From assembly GCA_021776795.1 (NCBI GenBank), contig JAJFFC010000008.1, positions 378,738 through 442,737 of the forward strand: a stretch of DNA of 64,000 nucleotides. Direction: 5' to 3'. The notes under the pieces are model-generated. The model was not told where the DNA came from and made no database searches. It saw only the letters and a list, made by a program, of their open reading frames with translations. How positions within the stretch are numbered: the stretch's first letter is position 1; every line of letters starts with the position of its first letter. The DNA is from Planctomycetota bacterium. GTDB lineage: Bacteria; Planctomycetota; UBA1135. The position numbers and the translations under genes are program-made. Below, piece by piece: positions 12,368 to 42,019 of the stretch.

Positions 12368-13366
12368 ATGGAGCCCATCCTGACCATTCAACAAGCGAAG
12401 CGGAGCTTCGGCGAAGTCCATGCCCTGCGCGGCGTGAGCTTCGACATGGCGGCCGGCGAGGTCGTCGCCCTGCTCGGCCCCAACGGCGCCGGGAAGAGTA
12501 CCTTGATTCGCTCGATCACCACCTTGGAGAATCTCGATGCCGGATCGATTTCCGTTTGTGGTGTTTCGGTGCAAGACGATCCGCGGGCCGCGCGCGCCTT
12601 TCTCGGTTATGCCGGGCAAGAGTCGGCGCTCGATAAGGTCCTGACTGGGCGAGAGTTCTTGCGCTTCCAGGGTGGCTTGGTGCATTTGCCTAAGGCGCAA
12701 ATTTTGCCGCGCGTGGAAGAGTTGCTCGCCCGCTTCGGCTTGCAAGATGCTGGCGACCGTCGTTTGGAAACCTATTCCGGCGGCATGGCGCGGCGCTTGG
12801 ACCTTGCAGCATCGATCATGCATCAGCCCAAGCTTCTGATTCTGGATGAACCCTCTTCGGGCTTGGACTACGACGCCCGCCGCGAGCTGTGGCAAATGCT
12901 CGGCGAGTTGCGCGAAGAAGGCACCGCCTTGTTGTTGGCCACTCACGATTTCGAAGAGGCCGATGTCCTCTCTTCGCGCGCAGTCATGATGAGCCACGGC
13001 GAAGTCGTCGGCAGTGGCACGCCAGATGAATTACGCGCCGCCTTGGGCAGTTGGATTCTTGCCGCATCCTTGCATGAACATCAGGTGCCGGAAGATCGCG
13101 AACGCCTGCGCGCCTTGTTCTCTGAGGTCTCTGGCGTGGAAATGCCACCCAACCCGCAGTCTTCGGAATATGCCAAGGCAGTCCCGCCTGGCCAAGACAT
13201 GGCGCCTGACGGCCGCAACTGGAGCGAATGGCTGCGCGATCACGCTGCGCAACAGGGCGTGGAGTTGGTGAGTGTTGGTTTGCGTCGGCCGACGCTGCAA
13301 GATGCTTATCTCGCTGCCACACATCAACAAACTTCTACTTCAAACGCCGCGGAGGTGAGCGCATGA
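12368..13366 (+). CDS. ABC transporter ATP-binding protein (DrrA/ABC-2 type)
   Basis: LLGPNGAGKSTLIRSITTL Walker A, YSGGMARRLDLAASIMHQPKLLILDEPSSGLD; start trimmed to MEPILTIQQ. Confidence 0.9.
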   Translation: MEPILTIQQAKRSFGEVHALRGVSFDMAAGEVVALLGPNGAGKSTLIRSITTLENLDAGSISVCGVSVQDDPRAARAFLGYAGQESALDKVLTGREFLRFQGGLVHLPKAQILPRVEELLARFGLQDAGDRRLETYSGGMARRLDLAASIMHQPKLLILDEPSSGLDYDARRELWQMLGELREEGTALLLATHDFEEADVLSSRAVMMSHGEVVGSGTPDELRAALGSWILAASLHEHQVPEDRERLRALFSEVSGVEMPPNPQSSEYAKAVPPGQDMAPDGRNWSEWLRDHAAQQGVELVSVGLRRPTLQDAYLAATHQQTSTSNAAEVSA

Positions 13367-14172
13367 ACTCCCCCTTCTGGCAAGAAACGCGCGCCCAAAC
13401 TTGGCGCTGGTTCCTTCACAGCAAGCGTCGGCCGATTGTAGTCATCAGCGGCCTCATGCAGCCCATCATCTGGATGACGCTATTCGTGTTGGTGCTCGGC
13501 AAGTCGATGGCGGAGACCTTGGGTGGTCTCCCCTATCTCGACTTTGTTACGCCGGGTGCCTTGCTGTTCACGGCCTTCAATGCCTCGCTCAATGCGGGTG
13601 TGCCGATTCTGTTCGACCGCGAACTTGGTTTTCTCGACCGCATTCGCGCCGCGCCGCTGCATGATCGCTTCAGCATTGTGCTCGCTAGCGCGATTCACAT
13701 TTCGGTGATGACGCTGTTGCAATGCTTGGTCATCGTCGCCGCGACTTCGGTAATCGGTGTCAGTTTTGCAGGCGGCTTGATGGGCGCGATGGTTGGCTTG
13801 CTGGCCTTACTCTTGGTCATTCTGGGCTTTACTTCCTTAAGCCTCGGCCTGGCCTTCCAGTTCCGCCGTCACTTTGAAATGTTGGCGGTGATCATGATCA
13901 TCACCTTGCCGATGATCTTCCTTTCCAGCGCCTTTGCTCCGCTGGATCGACTGCCCGACTTGTTGCGCAACTTGGTCGTGTTCAACCCGGTCACGATGGC
14001 GATTGAACCACTACGCATGGTCTACAGCAATCCGGAATGGAGCATGACCACGCCGCTGGCCTCGACCTTCTTCGGCGACCTCAACGCCTGGCACTTCTTT
14101 GGCGGCTTGATTGGCTTCAACCTCCTCGCCGGCATGTGGAGCCGCAAGGTGTTGGCCAAGAAGCTGGCTTAG
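13363..14172 (+). CDS. ABC-2 type transporter permease
   Basis: MNSPFWQETRAQTWRWFLHSKRRPIVVISGLMQPIIWMTLF...; six-TM ABC-2 permease; ATGA overlap with the upstream ATPase. Confidence 0.88.
   Translation: MNSPFWQETRAQTWRWFLHSKRRPIVVISGLMQPIIWMTLFVLVLGKSMAETLGGLPYLDFVTPGALLFTAFNASLNAGVPILFDRELGFLDRIRAAPLHDRFSIVLASAIHISVMTLLQCLVIVAATSVIGVSFAGGLMGAMVGLLALLLVILGFTSLSLGLAFQFRRHFEMLAVIMIITLPMIFLSSAFAPLDRLPDLLRNLVVFNPVTMAIEPLRMVYSNPEWSMTTPLASTFFGDLNAWHFFGGLIGFNLLAGMWSRKVLAKKLA
14101..14172 (+). repeat. Boundary block 1, copy 1 (3' end of ABC permease)
   Basis: 72 nt ggcggcttgattggcttcaacctcc...aagctggcttag; matches 16915-16986 at 71/72 (g/t at 14151). Confidence 0.95.
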
Positions 14173-16706
14173 AAACCGCGTAAAAGAACCTCGAGCTCGA
14201 CGTCCTCTCCGGCAATAATCTTCACGCCATCAGACCTTTCCGTTAGCGAAAAGGAATGATCTTCTGGATTACGATACCAGATTAAAAGGCTGTACTCACC
14301 TGGAAGTGCAGCAGGAATAAGGAACTCTGCTTCTGCAACATCCTTTTGCATTACAGCATGCTTCTGCACCACTGTGGCCGCTGTGCTCAGTTTGGAAACG
14401 CTCTCTGACACCTCGGACGCGCGAACCAATTGAAGTTGAAAATTGGCTTTAATACTTCTTTGCGATCGCGCTAAATTGATTCGGCATGCCCCCATAACGG
14501 GAATTTCAATCGTATGAGTGGTGACCCCAGCGGGAATTGAAATTTCTCGGAGGTGATTGCCAACGCGTAACTGAGCCTGAAAGGCATCCTGCGGAATCCC
14601 CGTAAGAAGAAGGCTCCCATCTTCCTGTGAAGCAGCCCGGACTTGTGCATGCTTGATGCCGTAAACAATCGAAGCAACTGATTGAATTTGTCCTAACTCA
14701 TCCTTAACCCATAGTCTCAGATCTCTACTCTGGCTCAAAATAATCCGCAAGTTGTTTCCTGGCGACGGCACGATGACCTCTGCTCGAACATATAAGCCAA
14801 AGCCTTCTTTCCGCACACTCATATTTACTGTTTCTGTTCCGATTCCAGGGACTTCAAATTCTCCAGCCTCATTAGTCGTAACGGTAACTGGCCGGAATCC
14901 CTCCCCATGAAGCCTGACCTTCGCACCAGCAATTGGTTTTGCACCTTCATCATGGACAACCCCTTGCAATTTTGAGGGGAGACTGTCCCAAAAGAGGCTT
15001 TTCTGAGTCCATTGCCCAGGTGGTAAGTAAAACCCCGGCAGTTTCGCCAAGATATTTTCCGATGCGTCCAGAAGAGATAACTCCATTTCCTGATTTGGAG
15101 TTAACCCCCACAGCTCAAGGGTCTCTTGATTTTCTTGGATGGCCAAATTGAGAGATTCCTGACCATCGGATCCTCGGCGGCCACCTGCAGGACTGATACC
15201 CAGCGCATTTCGCAACATGCCAAAAGCAAAATACTCCCAATCATTCTCGCCGACAAAGAGTGGCCGAGTGTTCCCAATTTTCACTCGGAGGTGTTGCCGC
15301 TCTTTACCTTTTGGGAAATCCAAGTGTACTCGGAGAGAAGCAGAGGGCTTGAGCCTAAAAAGTAGCTCTCCTGGCGGCGCCTGATCGAGCCATAAAGACA
15401 CATAGTCATAGCCAACAGCTCCTGCAGCAACTCGCTTTGTACCCTCCTTTAGCTTCACTGTGCCTTTGCCATCAGAATTAGTGAAACCTGAATTCTGATA
15501 TGCGAATGCCATTGCGCCACCAATACCATTGCCATGCTCATCTAGGACCCGAAAGGGGCGGTCCACAACACGGCTTAACGCAAGGTCACCAAGATCCCAC
15601 GGATTGTCGAAGGAAGACAAATCCAGCTCGATTTCTTTCGCGGCACCGTTCAATCCAAAGACGCTTCGGGGACGAAGATCGACCTCTGCCTTCCAAGGTC
15701 TTCCAGGCCCTCCGTTGCCTAACCAACGCTGATACTCATCCTCAGTGGACGGACTAATCGGAACCACAAACTCGCCATCTTCATTAGACTGGACCCATTT
15801 CCACGGAGTGATGGCATCGTTGGAAAAGAAAACGTAAACACCAACGTGAACGCCAGGAACTGGGATTCCTCGATCTGCAGAAACCACACGCCCACGCATG
15901 CTGGGCAACGGCATGGCAGTTAAGCGTACAAATGGAATTGCTTGTGGCAATAGGGCAGTGGAAGGCTGACTTATTCGCCCTTCAGGGAACACCGATTCCA
16001 ACATTACGCCATCGGTGAGAGTGAGCCTACCTTGCCATTCCTGCGGAAGACCAGTCACAAAGAAACGTTGCTCGGCATTCAAATGCAGTGTCCGTTGGCC
16101 TGGAAGGCATTGCAACTCTTTGAACTTCTCCCGAACTCTGTCAGGAATAGGGAAGGTGGACCTTGCTTTCGATTGAAGAAACACGCTTACTTCTCGCTCA
16201 GGTGGCGTAAGGAATTCAACTTCCCCCTCCATCTGCAATCCTTGGGGTAGCTGGGCGAATATCGCCGGCTTCGAGCGGTTGACCTCCTGATAGTGCGGCA
16301 TTGCGTTCGCTGCCAATACCAATAGGCCACCTTTGCCTGAACCAATCGGAAAATGCACTTTCCCTTCGAGGTTGGTGAATTCACTCAAAAGGAATCCGGC
16401 ACTATCCCAAAGCCAAACTTCTGCACCGGGCAAGCGTTTCCCATCGAAACTTTCCACGGTTATTTCGGACTGGCCAGCTCCTTCGGAAACTGAATTCGCG
16501 CTCAAGGCGTGGTCTTCGCGAAGCAAATCCATTTCCGATGCCTCGGCCCTTGAATTAATTGCCAAATCCTCCTCTAGCCGCGATTCTTCAATCTCTTGTG
16601 ACTCATTGCTCTCTCCCCCCCCGTCGGAGGCACTTTCCAACCCCCAAAAGACTCCTAATACCAGGGCAGCGAGTACCACGACCAGGACTGAGGATTTATT
16701 CATCAA
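14169..16706 (-). CDS. Large secreted/anchored protein with CarboxypepD_reg-like repeats, tandem copy A
   Basis: N-terminal hydrophobic anchor (SVLVVVLAALVLGVFWGL), Ig-like repeats such as LQGVVHDEGAKPIAGAKVRLHGEGFRPVTVTTNEAGEFEVPGIG; end-to-end homologous to 16983-19508. Visibly AT-richer than the flanks. Confidence 0.85.
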   Translation of the reverse strand: MMNKSSVLVVVLAALVLGVFWGLESASDGGGESNESQEIEESRLEEDLAINSRAEASEMDLLREDHALSANSVSEGAGQSEITVESFDGKRLPGAEVWLWDSAGFLLSEFTNLEGKVHFPIGSGKGGLLVLAANAMPHYQEVNRSKPAIFAQLPQGLQMEGEVEFLTPPEREVSVFLQSKARSTFPIPDRVREKFKELQCLPGQRTLHLNAEQRFFVTGLPQEWQGRLTLTDGVMLESVFPEGRISQPSTALLPQAIPFVRLTAMPLPSMRGRVVSADRGIPVPGVHVGVYVFFSNDAITPWKWVQSNEDGEFVVPISPSTEDEYQRWLGNGGPGRPWKAEVDLRPRSVFGLNGAAKEIELDLSSFDNPWDLGDLALSRVVDRPFRVLDEHGNGIGGAMAFAYQNSGFTNSDGKGTVKLKEGTKRVAAGAVGYDYVSLWLDQAPPGELLFRLKPSASLRVHLDFPKGKERQHLRVKIGNTRPLFVGENDWEYFAFGMLRNALGISPAGGRRGSDGQESLNLAIQENQETLELWGLTPNQEMELSLLDASENILAKLPGFYLPPGQWTQKSLFWDSLPSKLQGVVHDEGAKPIAGAKVRLHGEGFRPVTVTTNEAGEFEVPGIGTETVNMSVRKEGFGLYVRAEVIVPSPGNNLRIILSQSRDLRLWVKDELGQIQSVASIVYGIKHAQVRAASQEDGSLLLTGIPQDAFQAQLRVGNHLREISIPAGVTTHTIEIPVMGACRINLARSQRSIKANFQLQLVRASEVSESVSKLSTAATVVQKHAVMQKDVAEAEFLIPAALPGEYSLLIWYRNPEDHSFSLTERSDGVKIIAGEDVELEVLLRGF

Positions 16707-16745
16707 TATGTGCTCTCTAGAGCATCCCCACCTTAACCCATTCCG

Positions 16746-16799
16746 ACTGATAAGGTGCAGGAATGGATAGCAAGCACTCCCGACGGGGGCTGATTAGCC
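16746..16799 (+). repeat. Boundary block 2, copy 1 (5' fragment of the 19571 gene)
   Basis: actgataaggtgcaggaatggatagcaagcactcccgacgggggctgattagcc; 53/54 identical to 19554-19607. Confidence 0.95.
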
Positions 16800-16986
16800 G
16801 GGAAGTGCTTCCAATTCGGCCTAGTCACCTCGATTTCCTCGACCGCATTCGCGATGGGCCCGGCAATGCTTGTTGTGCATCGCCGGAATTTCGATGCTTG
16901 GTCTCAGCATTCCTGGCGGCTTGATTGGCTTCAACCTCCTCGCCGGCATGTGGAGCCGCAAGGTTTTGGCCAAGAAGCTGGCTTAG
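16763..16986 (+). pseudogene. Chimeric remnant: 5' fragment of the 19571 gene joined to a decayed 3' fragment of the ABC permease
   Basis: ATG at 16763 gives MDSKHSRRGLIS (identical to the start of the 19571 gene), then LDFLDRIR resembling permease GFLDRIR, stop at 16922-16924; the 3' part 16915-16986 is permease-terminal sequence including its TAG. Confidence 0.88.
16915..16986 (+). repeat. Boundary block 1, copy 2
   Basis: 71/72 identical to 14101-14172, including the stop codon shared with the opposite-strand gene. Confidence 0.95.
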
Positions 16987-19508
16987 AGTTCGTCAAGATT
17001 TAGCACCAGCGAAAGCGGCTGGCCAAGTTCAAGCAAGTAAGACTTCGATTGGAAATGCAGTTCGAATTGATGAGTCTCTAAATTCCATCGCCACAGGAAC
17101 AGGTGGTATTCGCCCGGCACTAACCCAACAACCTGGACATCTTCTTGGACATCTCCCTGCTGAAGCACGATATGGGCCTCACCCATGCCGGCAAAATGTC
17201 GATATTGGTCGCCAACCAACCCTAGGTCGGCAACAGGCACCAATTGCAGCTGATAATTTTCCTTTGACGCGCCTTCCTCGCGCGTGAGCTGGACCGAGGC
17301 TAGCGAAAAAGCTGGAATCTCAATGGAGTGCTCTAGGACACTTGCCGGCAGGGGATAATTACCGAGCCATGGCCCTAGCCAGACAGAGATACTTACTGCT
17401 TCTTGTGGCAGTCCCTCTAGAAGATAGCTCCCATCTTCTTGCACTCGAGAGGATACGGATTCCAACTCACCACCAAATCGAACGAAGCAATCGGACTGCA
17501 ATCGATTGTCTGAATCGGTAATCCACAGCCGAACTGATCTTGCCTCGCTAAGCGTAATCTTGACTGGATCGTCGTCGGCGAGCGGGACGGGAATAGCCTC
17601 TGCCCAATAAAGACCGTATCGTTCATGGCGAACACTTAAGCGTATTGATTCTGTGCCAACGCCTTCCTGGGTAAAGGAGCCGTCAGATTGCGAATAGAGG
17701 CCAAGTCCATGGCCCTCATCTTTAGTCCATAGCTGGACCAACGCTCCGGGAACCGCTTCGCCATGCTCATTGACGACTATGCCGCGAAAGGATTGAGGAC
17801 CCTGCTCCAGGACCAGAACCAATTCTCGAAGCTCGCCACCCTGTAAATAAACTGGGATATCCACCAGCTTATTGCCGATCGCATCAAGCAGGTAAATGCG
17901 AAAATCTTTATTCGCCGATAGCCCCCAAATATCTAGAGGACTTCCATCGCTTGGTAGTTGGAATTCTTTTCCCTCGCCATCCTTGCCGCTATAGCCTCCA
18001 CCAATACGCAAACCCATTCTCCTTCGTAGGCCATCGGCATAACTCCGGCCTTTACCGCCAAGAAGTGCAAAGAGAGGGCCTTGATCCGTGTGAACCAGCA
18101 ATCTTAGGGAAGACAAATCGGTGTTAGCTGGAAAGTCAAACTTGATGCGTAAACTGGGTGCTTTTTGGAGCCGAAAGGTCAACCTCTCTGGAGTGCCATC
18201 CTCGAGTTCGATGCTAGTAAAGGCATAACCCACAGCCCCACAAGTCACCACAGAATGGTTATCGCCGAGAAAAACCGTGCCCTGTCCTTGCGCGTTGGTC
18301 GGCTCCGAAGGAATACCGGCGCTGGCATATGCGCCTGCAATAGGATTTCCGCTTTCATCTAGTGCGGCAAAGGGAATCCCCTTAATGGCCGCCAAAGGAA
18401 TCTCACCTAGGTCCCAAGGGTCACTGAGCGAACTCAAATCAATTTTCACCGATCGACTATTGCCACCGGACTTCACTGGCGATCCTACGTATAGTCGGAG
18501 TTTGGCTGAGATTGGACCTGTAGGCACCTCTCCCGAAATCCAAGCTAGGTAAGTTTCCGTGTTGGACGGAGTGAGGTTCAAGATGAACTCTCCTCGTTCG
18601 TCACTCGAGGCATTGATTACCCTCGCCGCTCTATCTAGTGGGAAGGAAATTGAGCCGCTAATATTTACATCGCCAACCCCTACCCTGCCTTGGGGTGTAA
18701 CTACTTTCCCATGGAATCGAGGGATAGCTACAGCTTCAAGGGTTAAATATGGTGGAATTTTTTCCAGCTCAACCTTATTTGGTCGCTTGACGCTACCTAC
18801 TGGGAGAGAGCTGACTAACAGGTATTCTGGTGAAAGTTCTAGTGAGCCACTCCAATCATCTGGCAAATTGACAAAACGAAATGAACCGTCTTTCTCTGGT
18901 TTTACATAAGATCTTCGGACGTAAACGCCAGCGTTGGCTAAGTGGTACCCAATATCATCTGAGAAGCCGGGAGATGGGACCGAATCAGTTCGCATGATTA
19001 CGCTGTAATCCGCTGGAATCCTATCCGGAAGAAGAATACGGCCAACAATCTCACGATTTCCCTGAATAACAAACTCGGCTTTCCCTTGGGAGAAGTCTGC
19101 CTTGCCAAACTGCGCCAACGAATTCGGCAGAACAACGGCAAATCCTCCCTCCCCGGCAGAAAGAGGAAAGGAGACAACCCCTTCTTCATTCGTATGGTTT
19201 GGACCGAAAATTTCTTCCCCAATCCAAACCCACACACTGACCGCAGATTGGGGGCGGTGTTCGGAGTCAATGACTTTCAAGTGCCAAGACTGTTCTCTTC
19301 CTTCGGGAAAAATGCCCCCATTCTCTAAGGCGGTTCGCTCCACAGATTCGTGAGAGCCCAATTCTCGATTCTGGCTAGCAGAGGAAAGGTCTTCACTCAA
19401 AACGGTACCTTTCTCTATGGTTTTCGAAGTGTGACAGCCGTCAGCCAAGAACAACCAAATCAAAAGGGCAAATAAGACCAAGGACGTCAAGGAGAGAAAG
19501 GCGCGCAT
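16983..19508 (-). CDS. Large secreted/anchored protein with CarboxypepD_reg-like repeats, tandem copy B
   Basis: Homologous along its length to copy A, e.g. DLSSLSDPWDLGEIPLAAIKGIPFAALDESGNPIAGAYA vs DLSSFDNPWDLGDLALSRVVDRPFRVLDEHGNGIGGAMA; N-terminal hydrophobic segment. Confidence 0.85.
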   Translation of the reverse strand: MRAFLSLTSLVLFALLIWLFLADGCHTSKTIEKGTVLSEDLSSASQNRELGSHESVERTALENGGIFPEGREQSWHLKVIDSEHRPQSAVSVWVWIGEEIFGPNHTNEEGVVSFPLSAGEGGFAVVLPNSLAQFGKADFSQGKAEFVIQGNREIVGRILLPDRIPADYSVIMRTDSVPSPGFSDDIGYHLANAGVYVRRSYVKPEKDGSFRFVNLPDDWSGSLELSPEYLLVSSLPVGSVKRPNKVELEKIPPYLTLEAVAIPRFHGKVVTPQGRVGVGDVNISGSISFPLDRAARVINASSDERGEFILNLTPSNTETYLAWISGEVPTGPISAKLRLYVGSPVKSGGNSRSVKIDLSSLSDPWDLGEIPLAAIKGIPFAALDESGNPIAGAYASAGIPSEPTNAQGQGTVFLGDNHSVVTCGAVGYAFTSIELEDGTPERLTFRLQKAPSLRIKFDFPANTDLSSLRLLVHTDQGPLFALLGGKGRSYADGLRRRMGLRIGGGYSGKDGEGKEFQLPSDGSPLDIWGLSANKDFRIYLLDAIGNKLVDIPVYLQGGELRELVLVLEQGPQSFRGIVVNEHGEAVPGALVQLWTKDEGHGLGLYSQSDGSFTQEGVGTESIRLSVRHERYGLYWAEAIPVPLADDDPVKITLSEARSVRLWITDSDNRLQSDCFVRFGGELESVSSRVQEDGSYLLEGLPQEAVSISVWLGPWLGNYPLPASVLEHSIEIPAFSLASVQLTREEGASKENYQLQLVPVADLGLVGDQYRHFAGMGEAHIVLQQGDVQEDVQVVGLVPGEYHLFLWRWNLETHQFELHFQSKSYLLELGQPLSLVLNLDEL

Positions 19509-19553
19509 GAAAGGAAAATCGGAGTCAGCTTGAATCTTAGCATAACGATGTGA

Positions 19554-19607
19554 ACTGCTAAGGTGCAGGAATGGATAGCAAGCACTCCCGACGGGGGCTG
19601 ATTAGCC
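19554..19607 (+). repeat. Boundary block 2, copy 2 (intact locus)
   Basis: 53/54 identical to 16746-16799. Confidence 0.95.
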
Positions 19608-19936
19608 CGGCACTTCTTCTGGTTGGCCTGACCGCAACCGGCGCCTTCGCCCTGGGGCAACGCGCGAGTCAGAAAGCGCAAGATCCGGCACCGCCCAATC
19701 CTGCGGCGCAACGCATCGAAATGATCCAAAGCTTGCGCTCGATGGAAGCTTCCTTCGCCAAGATGGAAGCGAACATGGAACTACAAACCAAGAGTTTGCA
19801 ACAACTCGAGCGCATCAATGGTGCCCTGCTGCGTTTGGTCCATCAACAGGTCACCCCGGTAGAGAGCAACCCCCATGTCATCCCGCATGGGGTGCCCGGC
19901 CCGCCCAATGGCGGCGAGATCAACGGCCCGCGCTAG
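19571..19936 (+). CDS. Hypothetical protein, N-terminal TM/signal plus coiled coil
   Basis: MDSKHSRRGLISPALLLVGLTATGAFALG...IEMIQSLRSMEASFAKMEANMELQTKSLQQLERINGALLRLV. Confidence 0.72.
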   Translation: MDSKHSRRGLISPALLLVGLTATGAFALGQRASQKAQDPAPPNPAAQRIEMIQSLRSMEASFAKMEANMELQTKSLQQLERINGALLRLVHQQVTPVESNPHVIPHGVPGPPNGGEINGPR

Positions 19937-29430: not shown

Positions 29431-29871
29431 ATGGATCGCGAGCACGGCAACCGCCTGATTTCTTCTCTTTGTTACCAAGACGCCAACGCCGCCATTTCTT
29501 GGCTGGAATGCGCCTTTGGGTTTACTCCGCATTTGGTCGTGCCCGGTGAAAACGGTGCGGTCATGCATTCGCAGCTGGTGTCCCCCGACGGCCGTTCCAT
29601 GATCATGCTTTATTCGCAGCGCGACGATGAGTTCGGCAAATTGCAAAACCCACCTAAGTCATTAGGCGGGTGCAACCAAAGTTTGTATTTGGTGGTCGAA
29701 GACGTCGACGCCCACCACGCCCGCGCGGTCGAGGCCGGCGCCACCATTCATATGCCTCCGACCAATCAAGACTACGGCGGCAGTTCCTATACCTGCGAAG
29801 ACCCCGAAGGACACATCTGGAGCTTTGGCAGCTATGACCCCTGGGCAGAAGTCGACTGTCCGCAGGATTAG
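29431..29871 (+). CDS. VOC family / glyoxalase-like protein
   Basis: LISSLCYQDANAAISWLECAFGFTPHLVVPGENGAVMHSQL...YLVVEDVDAHHARAVEAGATIHMPPTNQDYGGSSYTCEDPEGHIWSFGSYDP. Confidence 0.88.
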   Translation: MDREHGNRLISSLCYQDANAAISWLECAFGFTPHLVVPGENGAVMHSQLVSPDGRSMIMLYSQRDDEFGKLQNPPKSLGGCNQSLYLVVEDVDAHHARAVEAGATIHMPPTNQDYGGSSYTCEDPEGHIWSFGSYDPWAEVDCPQD

Positions 29872-30929
29872 GGCTGAGGCAACCACAACGAGGCATCGCC
29901 GTAGCTGAAGAAGCGGTAGCGTTGGGCGACGGCTTCGGCGTAGATTTTTTTGACTAGCGCTAGGCCATCGGCGGCGCCTTGGTGTTGCGCTAGGCCGGCG
30001 ACTAAGGCAAGCAAGGTTGACCTTGGGGTGTGGAAGTTGGTGAGTAGACCATCCACTACTTGAAAGTCATGCCCGGGCAAAATCATGAGTCGGGTTTCGC
30101 CTTTGTCGCCTTGGGCCCATGCTTCCAGTGCGCGGCACACGGTGGTGCCCGCGGCAATCACATGACGACCGTCTTGCTTTGCTTGGCGCAGCTTTGCGGC
30201 CAAGTCTTCGGAAACGGTGAAGCGCTCGGCGTGCATCGGGTGCTCTTCGACGCGTTCGGTTTCGACTGGGAGGAATGTGCCGCGACCTACATGCAGAGTG
30301 AGGTAAGCCTGCTCTACACCTTGCTGCTCCAAGGACTGCAACAGAGCCTGGTCAAAATGCAGACTAGCCGTTGGCGCAGCCACCGAACCCTCGGCCTGAG
30401 CCCAAACGGTTTGGTAGCGCGCGCGATCTTCGGCACTGTCGGTGTCTTCGGCTAGGTCTTCGCGCAAACGCCGAATGTAGGGCGGTAAGGGTGTGGAGCC
30501 AATCTGCTCCAAAGCAGCGGGCCAATCGGCAGCTCCCTCTAGGTCCACCGTCCATTCTCCGCGCTCATGCTTTTCGACTAAACGCAATTGAGGTCCGCCC
30601 GTGGCAGTTACCCCATGAAGTTCTACACCCGGGCGCAAACGACCACCGCTCATCAGGCAACGCGCCTGGCCATCGGCGAGGTCATGCAAATACAAACCCT
30701 CGACGCGGCCGCCGGTTTCCTTCTGCAAACACAAACGCGCCGGCAACACCCGCGTGTCATTCAGCACCAACAAATCACCTTCGCGCAAAAACTGCGGTAG
30801 GTCAGCAAAGACGTGGTGATGCCCCGCCCCTTCCTGCACCACCAACAGACGCGCTTCACGGCGCTCCGCCGGAGGATGACGCGCAATCAGCTCTTCGGGC
30901 AGCGGGAAATCAAGCTCGCTTAACTCCAC
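29868..30929 (-). CDS. queA: S-adenosylmethionine:tRNA ribosyltransferase-isomerase
   Basis: LDFPLPEELIARHPPAERREARLLV...DLLVLNDTRVLPARL...YQTVWAQAEGSVAAPTASLHFD...HVGRGTFLPVE...LLTNFHTPRSTLLALVAGL. Confidence 0.95.
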   Translation of the reverse strand: MELSELDFPLPEELIARHPPAERREARLLVVQEGAGHHHVFADLPQFLREGDLLVLNDTRVLPARLCLQKETGGRVEGLYLHDLADGQARCLMSGGRLRPGVELHGVTATGGPQLRLVEKHERGEWTVDLEGAADWPAALEQIGSTPLPPYIRRLREDLAEDTDSAEDRARYQTVWAQAEGSVAAPTASLHFDQALLQSLEQQGVEQAYLTLHVGRGTFLPVETERVEEHPMHAERFTVSEDLAAKLRQAKQDGRHVIAAGTTVCRALEAWAQGDKGETRLMILPGHDFQVVDGLLTNFHTPRSTLLALVAGLAQHQGAADGLALVKKIYAEAVAQRYRFFSYGDASLWLPQP

Positions 30930-39034: not shown

Positions 39035-40483
39035 ATGAATCCCCTAAGTGGTAACCGCCTTCTTCAGCGCCCATTTATTATTTTACTTTTGGGCTTTGGA
39101 TTACTTTGCTGCTCCGACGAGCAAACGCCCCGCGAGTCTTCAGGAAATGACAATGCCTATCAAACCAGCCTGCTGAATGACAAGAAGGACTTCATTCTTA
39201 TCACCGTAGACACCCTACGAGCAGATCGCCTACCCTTTTATGGCGCATCAAGGGATACCGGAGGGAACCCTAATGCACCGTGGTCCTTTTCCTGGATGGC
39301 AGACAATGGAACGATTTTTGACCAGGTCTATTGCCAAGTTGGGATTACTCTTCCTTCCCTCTCATCCATGTGGACTGGCAAACACCCATTGGTTCATGGT
39401 GCGCTGACTAACCATTCGCAACTTGAAGAGCCGACTCTTGCAATGAAGCTTAATGAGCACGGCTGGATAGGGGTTGGGGCAGTCGCAAACGGTATTTTGA
39501 GAAGAGGATCGGGTCTTGAACGTGGATTCCGAGATTACCTTGCTTTTTCGGCAAAGAAGGAGAATGAAATCCCAAACTTCGTGGTTTCCAAGGCGCAGGA
39601 CCTAGTACGAGAACAAAAGCCTCTGTTTGTGTGGGCTCATTTCATGGCACCCCACCAGCCTTATGAGCCATTTCCCCCTTTCGCAAGTCAATTTACGAAG
39701 CAGATCGGGCCAGAGGGTAATAACAAGACTCTCTATGACTTACATTTAAATCCGGAAAAACTAACGCCAGAAATCAAACATCACCTTCGCGGACTCTACG
39801 ATGCCGAAATCCTTTCTGTAGAATCCCATGTACGCCAATTGCTAGCGGGCCTTGATGCAGAATATAGAAATGCTGGGCGAGGTGGCCTTCTTGAGAATGC
39901 GATTGTAATATTTACATCAGATCACGGAGAGGAACTTGGAGATCGTAATGGCTTCTTTATGCACGCTAAAAGCCTATATTCGGGTGTTATTCAGGTGCCG
40001 ACGATCATTCTCGGTGCAAATTGGCCTGCAAAAAGAGATTCACGCTTAATCGGACTAAACGAGGTTCTGCCATATATTATCGAAGGGGCACCGCTATCTG
40101 AATCCTTCGTAGTCTCCTCATTGAAAGAAAAATTCTATTCGATACGAAATGAGCGCTGGACTCTAATACACAATCCGCGTGCTGACAACTCCGGTCCAGG
40201 TGGCCCTCCTGTTGGCTCAATTTATCCATACCCGACCGTGGCATTATTCGATCGCATTTCTGATCCGCTGGAAAAGAATGATCTGGCAAATCAATACCCA
40301 AACACTGTGCGCCTCCTGCTAGACCAACTCCGAAATTGGCATGATGAGCTGCCCATCAGAGAAGAATCTGCAAGCAGTGGCATCGACACTCAACTTGTAA
40401 ACAGTCTTGGATATGCCGCCCAAGAGGAATCATCTACCAACTCATTGCCACCCCCTTGGCATGGAAATGAATGGCCTAAATAA
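39035..40483 (+). CDS. Alkaline-phosphatase-superfamily 'sulfatase'-like protein, Thr in the nucleophile position
   Basis: FILITVDTLRADRLPFYGASRD...VYCQVGITLPSLSSMWTGKHPLVHGALTNH...IVIFTSDHGEELGDRNGFFMHAKSLYSGVIQVPTIILGANW; possible lipoprotein N-terminus (GLLCCSDEQ). Confidence 0.85.
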   Translation: MNPLSGNRLLQRPFIILLLGFGLLCCSDEQTPRESSGNDNAYQTSLLNDKKDFILITVDTLRADRLPFYGASRDTGGNPNAPWSFSWMADNGTIFDQVYCQVGITLPSLSSMWTGKHPLVHGALTNHSQLEEPTLAMKLNEHGWIGVGAVANGILRRGSGLERGFRDYLAFSAKKENEIPNFVVSKAQDLVREQKPLFVWAHFMAPHQPYEPFPPFASQFTKQIGPEGNNKTLYDLHLNPEKLTPEIKHHLRGLYDAEILSVESHVRQLLAGLDAEYRNAGRGGLLENAIVIFTSDHGEELGDRNGFFMHAKSLYSGVIQVPTIILGANWPAKRDSRLIGLNEVLPYIIEGAPLSESFVVSSLKEKFYSIRNERWTLIHNPRADNSGPGGPPVGSIYPYPTVALFDRISDPLEKNDLANQYPNTVRLLLDQLRNWHDELPIREESASSGIDTQLVNSLGYAAQEESSTNSLPPPWHGNEWPK

Positions 40484-40513
40484 TGCCACCACTGATTAAG
40501 TTTAATTCCTGGC

Positions 40514-42019
40514 CTAAGGATGGTAAAGGACGACTAATGGCTTATTTGAATAAAGGACTGGATTGACAACGGACTTCCCTGCTGGATTCGTAGAGATTAA
40601 CAGGTTGGTTTTGGAGAATTGGTCGAGCGCGGTGCCACTTCCAAATGTTGCTGATTGGAGAGGCGATTCAGGAGAAACAGCCTCTACAGTCGTCGCCCAT
40701 GACGGTACCGGGATCTCAGGAAGTGCACTCACGCTTGTTGTGGTTACTACTGAATAAGAAATCCCAGCGGATAAAACGTCGAACCGAACTATATCGGGGG
40801 CAGAATTCCAGTTTCGGGTGACACTAGTAGACTGGGCCAATAAATCGGAAGCAAGCCAAACAGAAAAAGCATGCTTTCGAACAGGAGTTAAGTAACTCTG
40901 GCAGCCACAATTTCCACTCGTTGGAGCCTTATCAGGATTGCCAACAAGGCCATTTAATGAATAGCGGCCACAATCGTTTCCAAGCAAACCTGGCTCATGA
41001 CGGTCCATGGATGTGCCAGAGACCACTCTCTCAGCTCCTCCGGCAAGTGAGGCGTGAAGGCAAAGAAATGCATAGGACGCTTGCTCCTCCTGAGATTGCG
41101 ACACCAAGAATTGAGCTTGTCAAGTCCAAGTGGAGCCCTCCGTAAGGAATGCCAGTACGGTGGCTCCAGGGAAGGCCGGAGATAGTGAATTCTCGATCAA
41201 GGATTTCGTGTCTCGAATTCTAGATTCGACCGACAAGGCATCATTCCAATCTTCGTGATGGTGGACATCGAACCCATGCACCAATTTTCTGGGGGTCTGT
41301 TGACTGCCCTCTTGAATAGCTTTTTCAAGGATCGCCCTTAGGAAGGGAACAACTTCTCTATCCCAACTCGAACCGGGAACTTCGCTGGGCATTTGCCCAG
41401 CCCTGAACCCTGGAAGTATCACTAATGCACCAGGGTTTACAGCTTCCAATGAATCCTTTACAGCGGTTAACACAATAGGAAAATGATCAACATGCGGCGC
41501 CCAAATAGCACTCGATGTTAGTGGATCAGCATAAATCTCATTCTCGAGCTGCCAATACTCAATATGCTTACCACTCATTGAAAATGCGCGAGTAGCTAAA
41601 TCATCAATCCAATTCTGAAATGCAGCAAGCTCGTCGGACCCGGAAAGTTGAATCCCAGCGAGTGTGACATATTCTCCAAGCCCAACTAGATGCTTTGTGC
41701 CATCTGGGTCAATAAATTTTGAATAGATTGTAAAAAATATCTCTTTGTCAGAGTTAGCAACTAGGATGTCATCAAACCAATCCCACTGATATGAAGCACC
41801 CATCTCATACCAATCGGTAAACTCTTGGCCGAGTGCAGAAATCCGGATAAACCCTAGATTTGCTCCGTCAATAGCAGCCTGGGAGTCTGGGTTAGGCCCA
41901 CCGGCTCCAGTGGTATAGAAGGCTGGCGGTACTAGAGTGCCAACAGGTGATTCCTGGCCAAACGAATTTTGTTGACACGTGACGAAGAAAAGGGAAAGTC
42001 CAATAAGTAATGTTTTCAT
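40514..42019 (-). pseudogene. Secreted clan-A glycoside-hydrolase-like protein interrupted by an in-frame TGA at 41120-41122
   Basis: ORFs 41120-42019 and 40514-41107 are in the same frame, separated only by TGA plus four sense codons; YWQLENEIYADP and FLTEGSTWT resemble GH acid/base and nucleophile segments; downstream EEQASYAFLCLHASLAGGAERVV continues the fold. Confidence 0.75.

Follow-up and report, generated by a model that had tools for sequence, protein, structure and literature searches.

In Rhs orphan tips, the displaced variable parts keep a short copy of the conserved homology sequence. These tips of polymorphic toxin loci, with the displacement of C-termini outlined for them (PMC2935791), serve here as one system for comparison. 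For the T6SS immunity arrays of V. cholerae it has been proposed that DNA is joined through homology at one side and illegitimately at the other end (PMC5361080). Of 60 integrants selected in E. coli, 56 yielded a product that is diagnostic for partial duplication of the locus of homology; the 14 that were sequenced contained duplications of 109-950 bp, interpreted as integration of circular molecules by a single crossover (PMC3240628).

The locus described here lies in a window of 64,000 nt (C29:378738-442737), which belongs to the assembly of an uncultured planctomycete, 3.26 Mb in 31 contigs. It resembles the V. cholerae arrays (PMC5361080) in that alternative cargo appears to have been added successively at a fixed place, anchored by homology of the flank; in V. 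cholerae the older units persist downstream as an array, to which we liken the present slot. In contrast to V. cholerae, no T6SS, toxin or immunity gene was recognized here (genes A and B were searched by Pfam), and instead of effector-immunity modules whole secreted-type genes are found, at several unrelated housekeeping loci. Unlike in the Rhs tips, the scraps at the slot stem from neighbouring core genes and not from the variable protein, and no toxin domain was recognized. An insert together with a partial duplication of the locus, as predicted for homology-facilitated illegitimate recombination or circle integration (PMC3240628), matches the scars, but whereas those integrants came from a laboratory selection, the route here has to be read from standing genome structure. 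As in integron cassettes, variable cargo is arrayed with repeats of tens to more than 100 nt in between; unlike attC sites, however, these repeats are locus-specific coding fragments and the units contain no IntI; in these respects the locus does not qualify as an integron cassette array.

Structure of the locus

The order along the locus is permease, gene A, MDSKH start, permease end, gene B and MDSKH gene (Table 1). A first-pass annotation of the window had placed a 72-nt and a 54-nt block around each cargo gene. Both blocks were confirmed, the left one as a repeat of 74 nt (99% identity) with copies spaced 2814 nt apart in direct-repeat comparison, the right one as 54 nt (98%), and the lengths of 2699 and 2693 nt given for the two units are borne out by the coordinates. 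The right block is made up of 37 nt of MDSKH coding sequence and the 17 nt ahead of its ATG. Taken in full, the right repeat comprises 66 nt with 92% identity (16746-16811 and 19554-19619, spacing 2808 nt), its first 54 nt being the part with 98%. Homology to the MDSKH gene past the 54-nt block (beyond 16799) is unsupported, since 200 of 1000 shuffles were equally good.

In a self-comparison of the whole window the repeats reached E values of 5e-30 and 3e-20, which rules out a chance origin. Further copies of either block, a search for which the annotation had suggested, were sought as well; each block occurs in exactly two copies genome-wide, with none beyond the known pair. The permease shares 82-87% amino acid identity with its orthologues in genus g3, and the closest named records containing it are Planctomycetota metagenome-assembled genomes.

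Table 1. Position of genes, repeated blocks and permease remnants in the window
Feature	Position	Strand	Remarks
ABC-2 permease, left flank gene	13363..14172	+	PF01061, E=3.7e-26; longer ORF 13228-14172
Left block, copy 1: end of the intact permease (last 72 nt)	14100..14173	+	74 nt, 99% to 16914-16987
Cargo gene A, 845 aa, N-terminal hydrophobic segment and carboxypeptidase-regulatory-like domain	14169..16706	-	PF13620, E=9.2e-19
Right block, copy 1: truncated start of the MDSKH gene	16746..16799	+	53/54 to 19554-19607
Decayed permease remnant 1 (permease nt 262-293)	16829..16860	+	81%
Decayed permease remnant 2 (permease nt 357-401)	16863..16907	+	16863-16914 identical at 35/52
Left block, copy 2: last 72 nt of the permease without intact gene	16914..16987	+	73/74 to 14100-14173
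Cargo gene B, 841 aa, homologue of A (30%)	16983..19508	-	PF13620, E=7.1e-16
Right block, copy 2: start of the intact MDSKH gene	19554..19607	+	direct-repeat comparison
MDSKH gene, right flank, 121 aa	19571..19936	+	without Pfam family
QueA-like gene, right-hand limit of the interval that varies across the family	29868..30929	-	permease-to-QueA synteny in relatives

Properties of the cargo genes

The two cargo proteins had been described as homologous from end to end, and they indeed align over their full length (30% identity, E = 1e-108). At third codon positions the identity of the genes is 0.31, that is, saturated. Both proteins belong to the CarboxypepD_reg family (PF13620), with scores of 68.0 bits for A and 58.8 bits for B at a cut-off of 32.3, and both start with a hydrophobic segment; Pfam matched neither a toxin domain nor an ECF sigma domain in A or B. 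The cargo proteins are presumably secreted. The stop codon of gene A overlaps the stop codon of the permease, and its ORF starts with TTG, directly followed by an in-frame ATG at 16703. An AlphaFold2 model of B is beta-rich with a single N-terminal helix (residues 4-21), at a low confidence (mean pLDDT 64, pTM 0.35) that is too weak for a fold search.

The cargo genes are also richer in AT than their neighbours, as had been noticed before: A and B have a GC content of 0.505 and a GC3 of about 0.48 (0.476 for gene A) compared with a GC content of 0.583 in the window and a GC3 of 0.59-0.78 in the nearby listed genes. A foreign origin read from the low GC content alone was rejected because homologues in high-GC hosts are high-GC. 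Elsewhere in the window, low GC is also seen in three adjacent ORFs at 39035-42019 (GC3 0.41-0.44); two or more of them have secreted-type N-termini, and no repeats flank them.

Homologues of the cargo in G011 and G033 contain N-terminal Sigma70_r2 and Sigma70_r4_2 domains. The fused proteins are located at L061:10327-13446 (G011:C300), L117 (G033:C163) and L112 (G011:C73) and are possibly membrane-tethered sigma factors. Among these CarboxypepD_reg proteins of planctomycetes, the fused G011 protein, a close homologue, lies outside the slots, whereas the slot copies are without the sigma part; in the cargo tree it is the nearest relative of the slot protein of G021 (90/90). Given the ECF sigma fusions, membrane-anchored extracytoplasmic sensing or binding is a plausible role for the family, and for the slot copies such a function is presumed.

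Remnants in the junction

Between the truncated MDSKH start and the second permease end there are two decayed pieces of the permease gene, a feature that the first-pass annotation had overlooked. The two remnants are collinear (chain score 39, maximum of 400 dinucleotide shuffles 27). Differences in the longer remnant are distributed over codon positions 1, 2 and 3 as 8, 3 and 7, whereas in working permease orthologues of genus g3 40 of the 52 pooled differences are at third positions (Fisher p=0.007). This pattern, being unlike that of the orthologues, suggests that the longer remnant decayed free of coding constraint. The alternative that the inner remnant comes from a divergent functional permease of a donor is disfavoured by the same pattern.

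The left block shows 1 difference in 74 nt and the adjoining remnant 17 in 52 (Fisher p=6e-7); the blocks are therefore the youngest layer of the locus, an age ordering that rests on short sequences. They must also be far younger than the genes, since blocks with 98-99% identity bracket genes that are 30% identical and saturated. As the permease end of this genome is only 73-79% identical to that of the g3 relatives (21-27% different), the blocks were renewed long after the genera had separated. The older decayed permease pieces indicate that the slot was rebuilt at least once; they also show that the junction existed before the blocks were last renewed, so that no fewer than two events are required.

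The slot in related genomes

The relatives that were compared are metagenomic assemblies, all from other genera. In most of them, where the contigs reach, the region is syntenic with UbiA, ATPase and permease genes on one side and QueA and an inositol-phosphate synthase-like gene on the other. Among the 14 relatives with the permease, the permease-to-QueA interval is either empty or filled in different ways, by nothing but small genes, by a single related cargo or by a CotH/lamin-tail protein unrelated to it; the pair of A and B was sought at the slot and is carried by none of the 14. The interval amounts to about 13 nt in G018 and to about 0.1 kb in G009. In G016 its 0.55 kb contain MDSKH and a scrap of a VOC gene (27 aa), and in G024 its 2.8 kb contain a CotH-kinase/lamin-tail protein in cargo orientation. 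G023 (4.1 kb) has one cargo, MDSKH, a kinase scrap and VOC, and G021 (8.8 kb) has one cargo and MDSKH besides others; in the window the interval reaches 15.7 kb. In G023 the stop codon of the cargo overlaps the permease stop exactly as in gene A. MDSKH orthologues follow the permease in G016, G002, G021 and G023, in G002 straight after it without cargo in between, and one is located further off in G015. The smallest intervals tend to occur in the smallest genomes, so that gene loss by streamlining probably contributes to the pattern.

Two observations concern the content of these intervals. The CotH-kinase and lamin-tail protein of G024 (L089:6998-9682) is of the secreted type and is oriented like A and B, and G025 has the same protein with 91% identity (L090:7786-10470). 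The C-terminal scrap of a sugar kinase between MDSKH and QueA in G023 (L053:11153-11647) and the scrap of the VOC family at the corresponding place in G016 (L054:2978-3058) are deletion leftovers.

The variable-cargo slot proposed in the first-pass annotation thus stands as far as the content is concerned, which is zero, one or an unrelated cargo among the relatives; the proposed addition by homology arms is the best explanation and was reached by inference. A and B belong to one PF13620 family with the single cargos found in G021 and G023; the family tree joins A with B (99/99). A topology with B nearer to the G021 cargo than to A was rejected (AU p=0.0004), and a single clade of the four slot cargos was neither supported nor rejected (p=0.099).

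Other loci with the same signature

We scanned 1.26 Mb (39% of the genome) for direct repeats of 35-400 nt with an identity of 88% or more and a distance of 0.2-14 kb, irrespective of the cargo. Seven pairs came out of the scan; they belong to four loci, which are alike in that scraps of neighbouring core genes surround unusually AT-rich genes of the secreted type. One of the four is the locus described above. The six repeat-enclosed intervals are among the lowest 0.1-1.6% in GC content of random intervals of equal length. At the epimerase locus the gene end with a terminator-like hairpin is present in three copies (blocks 94-98%) with AT-rich genes after each; at least two of these genes are of the secreted type, and identity between the two longest cargos is 22%. 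Copies of the start of a DegT aminotransferase gene (97%) lie around three tandem paralogues of the secreted type (L154:14392-17620 = G000:C12:94392-97620), which are mosaic, their C-terminal thirds being 90-97% and their middles 47-70% alike. At the remaining locus the end of a copper-ATPase gene (96%) flanks and precedes FG-GAP-type proteins; here the cargos have 77% nucleotide identity and an ordinary tandem duplication suffices. The repeats of the slots are 54-173 nt long. No common sequence is evident among the blocks of different slots, the blocks did not match an Rfam element, and neither an integrase nor a transposase was recognized in the units, which in these respects do not resemble transposons or IS elements.

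When the other cargo loci were compared with themselves, one further case of this arrangement emerged, in another genus. On contig C131 of G009 a shortened homologue of the cargo and a small ORF are followed by the gene of a 3-keto-disaccharide hydrolase-domain protein, whose start is present in two 59-nt copies (95%), one on either side of them. In its congeners G018 and G022 the site is empty, the upstream and downstream genes are joined directly, and the single copy has 71-78% identity to either copy of G009. With a GC content of 0.489 the insert nearly matches its host (0.512). It is not AT-rich for this host; low GC content therefore marks the cases in the genome of the window and is no general rule.

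Two further genomes were scanned over 0.4 Mb each. G023 gave one short repeat pair and no case of a flank scar; its epimerase slot contains one divergent cargo and no repeats. The second, a control from another family of the order, gave seven pairs, which as judged by eye lie within genes, near tandem genes or at probable integron sites. At the DegT slot no recognizable cargo was present within about 1.5 kb upstream in six of six g3 relatives.

One array of the control, at G042:C1:227801-229865 (L221), consists of three repeats of 59-65 nt that start with TAAC and end with GTTAG, with small genes between them and a tyrosine-recombinase-like ORF nearby (230704-231321, minus strand). It is probably a small integron and looks quite unlike the slots described here. 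In L116 (G008:C69:1-8000) tandem genes of the cargo family have partly similar stretches (74-84%) without sharp flank copies.

Discussion

We consider it rather probable that large, beta-rich proteins, secreted or anchored in the membrane and diverging fast, are exchanged at this locus, a slot between conserved neighbours, and that its cargo was added via homology of one flank. The variable slot is the well supported part of this explanation; the homology-anchored route is likely but unproven. At the junction a flank gene is present as a partial copy, as expected of the scar of such an addition. The same scar at every comparable repeat found in the scanned 39% of the genome, and in another genus, suggests that alternative versions were repeatedly added at fixed slots.

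As to the donor of the DNA and the route of recombination, we infer a related cell whose DNA would carry the permease, another cargo in the same slot and the start of MDSKH. The donor DNA would recombine through homology with one neighbour, by a crossover in the permease, so that the resident cargo is kept. Its other end would be joined illegitimately, or a ligated circle would enter by a single crossover; in either case the end ligation or illegitimate join would create the MDSKH-to-permease junction. Both cargos would then be retained with a short, near-identical scrap of the neighbours at the junction. As the simplest second event, a later homologous exchange through the repeats may have refreshed the blocks; their younger age compared with the adjacent decayed permease pieces would thereby be accounted for. 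Homologues of ComEC and DprA were found in the genome and are compatible with DNA uptake; both are widespread and no proof of competence.

The sisterhood of A and B would equally be expected if the permease end, the cargo and the MDSKH start had been duplicated in tandem long ago, with fast divergence of the cargo, recent gene conversion of the blocks and no outside DNA. Such an ancestral duplication had been proposed in the first-pass annotation. The almost equal lengths of the units fit it as well, the permease remnant shows that the copied segment was once longer, and unequal exchange between direct repeats is common. However, blocks with 98-99% identity beside saturated genes fit badly: conversion would have been required repeatedly in blocks of 54-74 nt and would have had to halt at the gene edges. 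The recurrence elsewhere fits no better, as the pattern is found again at the epimerase slot with cargos merely 22% alike, and G009, with one cargo, a left copy that keeps the junction to the upstream gene and empty congeners, is left unexplained. On balance we regard this duplication as unlikely.

Improbable to us is that the blocks were kept by selection after an old duplication, the 54 nt as promoter or leader and the 72 nt as 3' end or terminator. The permease end is coding and varies by 21-27% among the g3 relatives, the left block, with 1 difference in 74 nt, has changed too little for constraint to account for it while third positions became saturated, and blocks of different slots have neither an evident common sequence nor an Rfam match. 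These points are set against the positions of the blocks, which immediately precede the start and immediately follow the stop of each cargo gene, and the intrinsic-terminator-like hairpin in the epimerase repeat. Integrases make direct repeats of gene 3' ends around inserts, and G018 and G022 show an empty site, so that the blocks might be thought of as attachment sites or target-site duplications of a site-specific or transposon-like mobile element. This we hold to be very improbable: the units are without a recognized integrase or transposase, repeats of 54-173 nt far exceed the usual target duplications, and the slots, which have no evident site in common, duplicate gene starts as well as gene ends.

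If homology-anchored addition is correct, the scraps of neighbouring genes are readable scars of past gene capture, and a simple repeat scan would find where and how uncultured bacteria gain secreted proteins without mobile elements. The displacement model of toxin loci would then extend to ordinary secreted proteins in Planctomycetota. A wider and more doubtful possibility, which we put forward tentatively, is that these planctomycetes keep slots genome-wide beside housekeeping genes, in which AT-rich, fast-evolving secreted proteins are captured time and again from other cells and stacked without a dedicated recombinase. Were this true, genome-wide slots would correspond to integron arrays, but for surface or secreted proteins and without an integrase.
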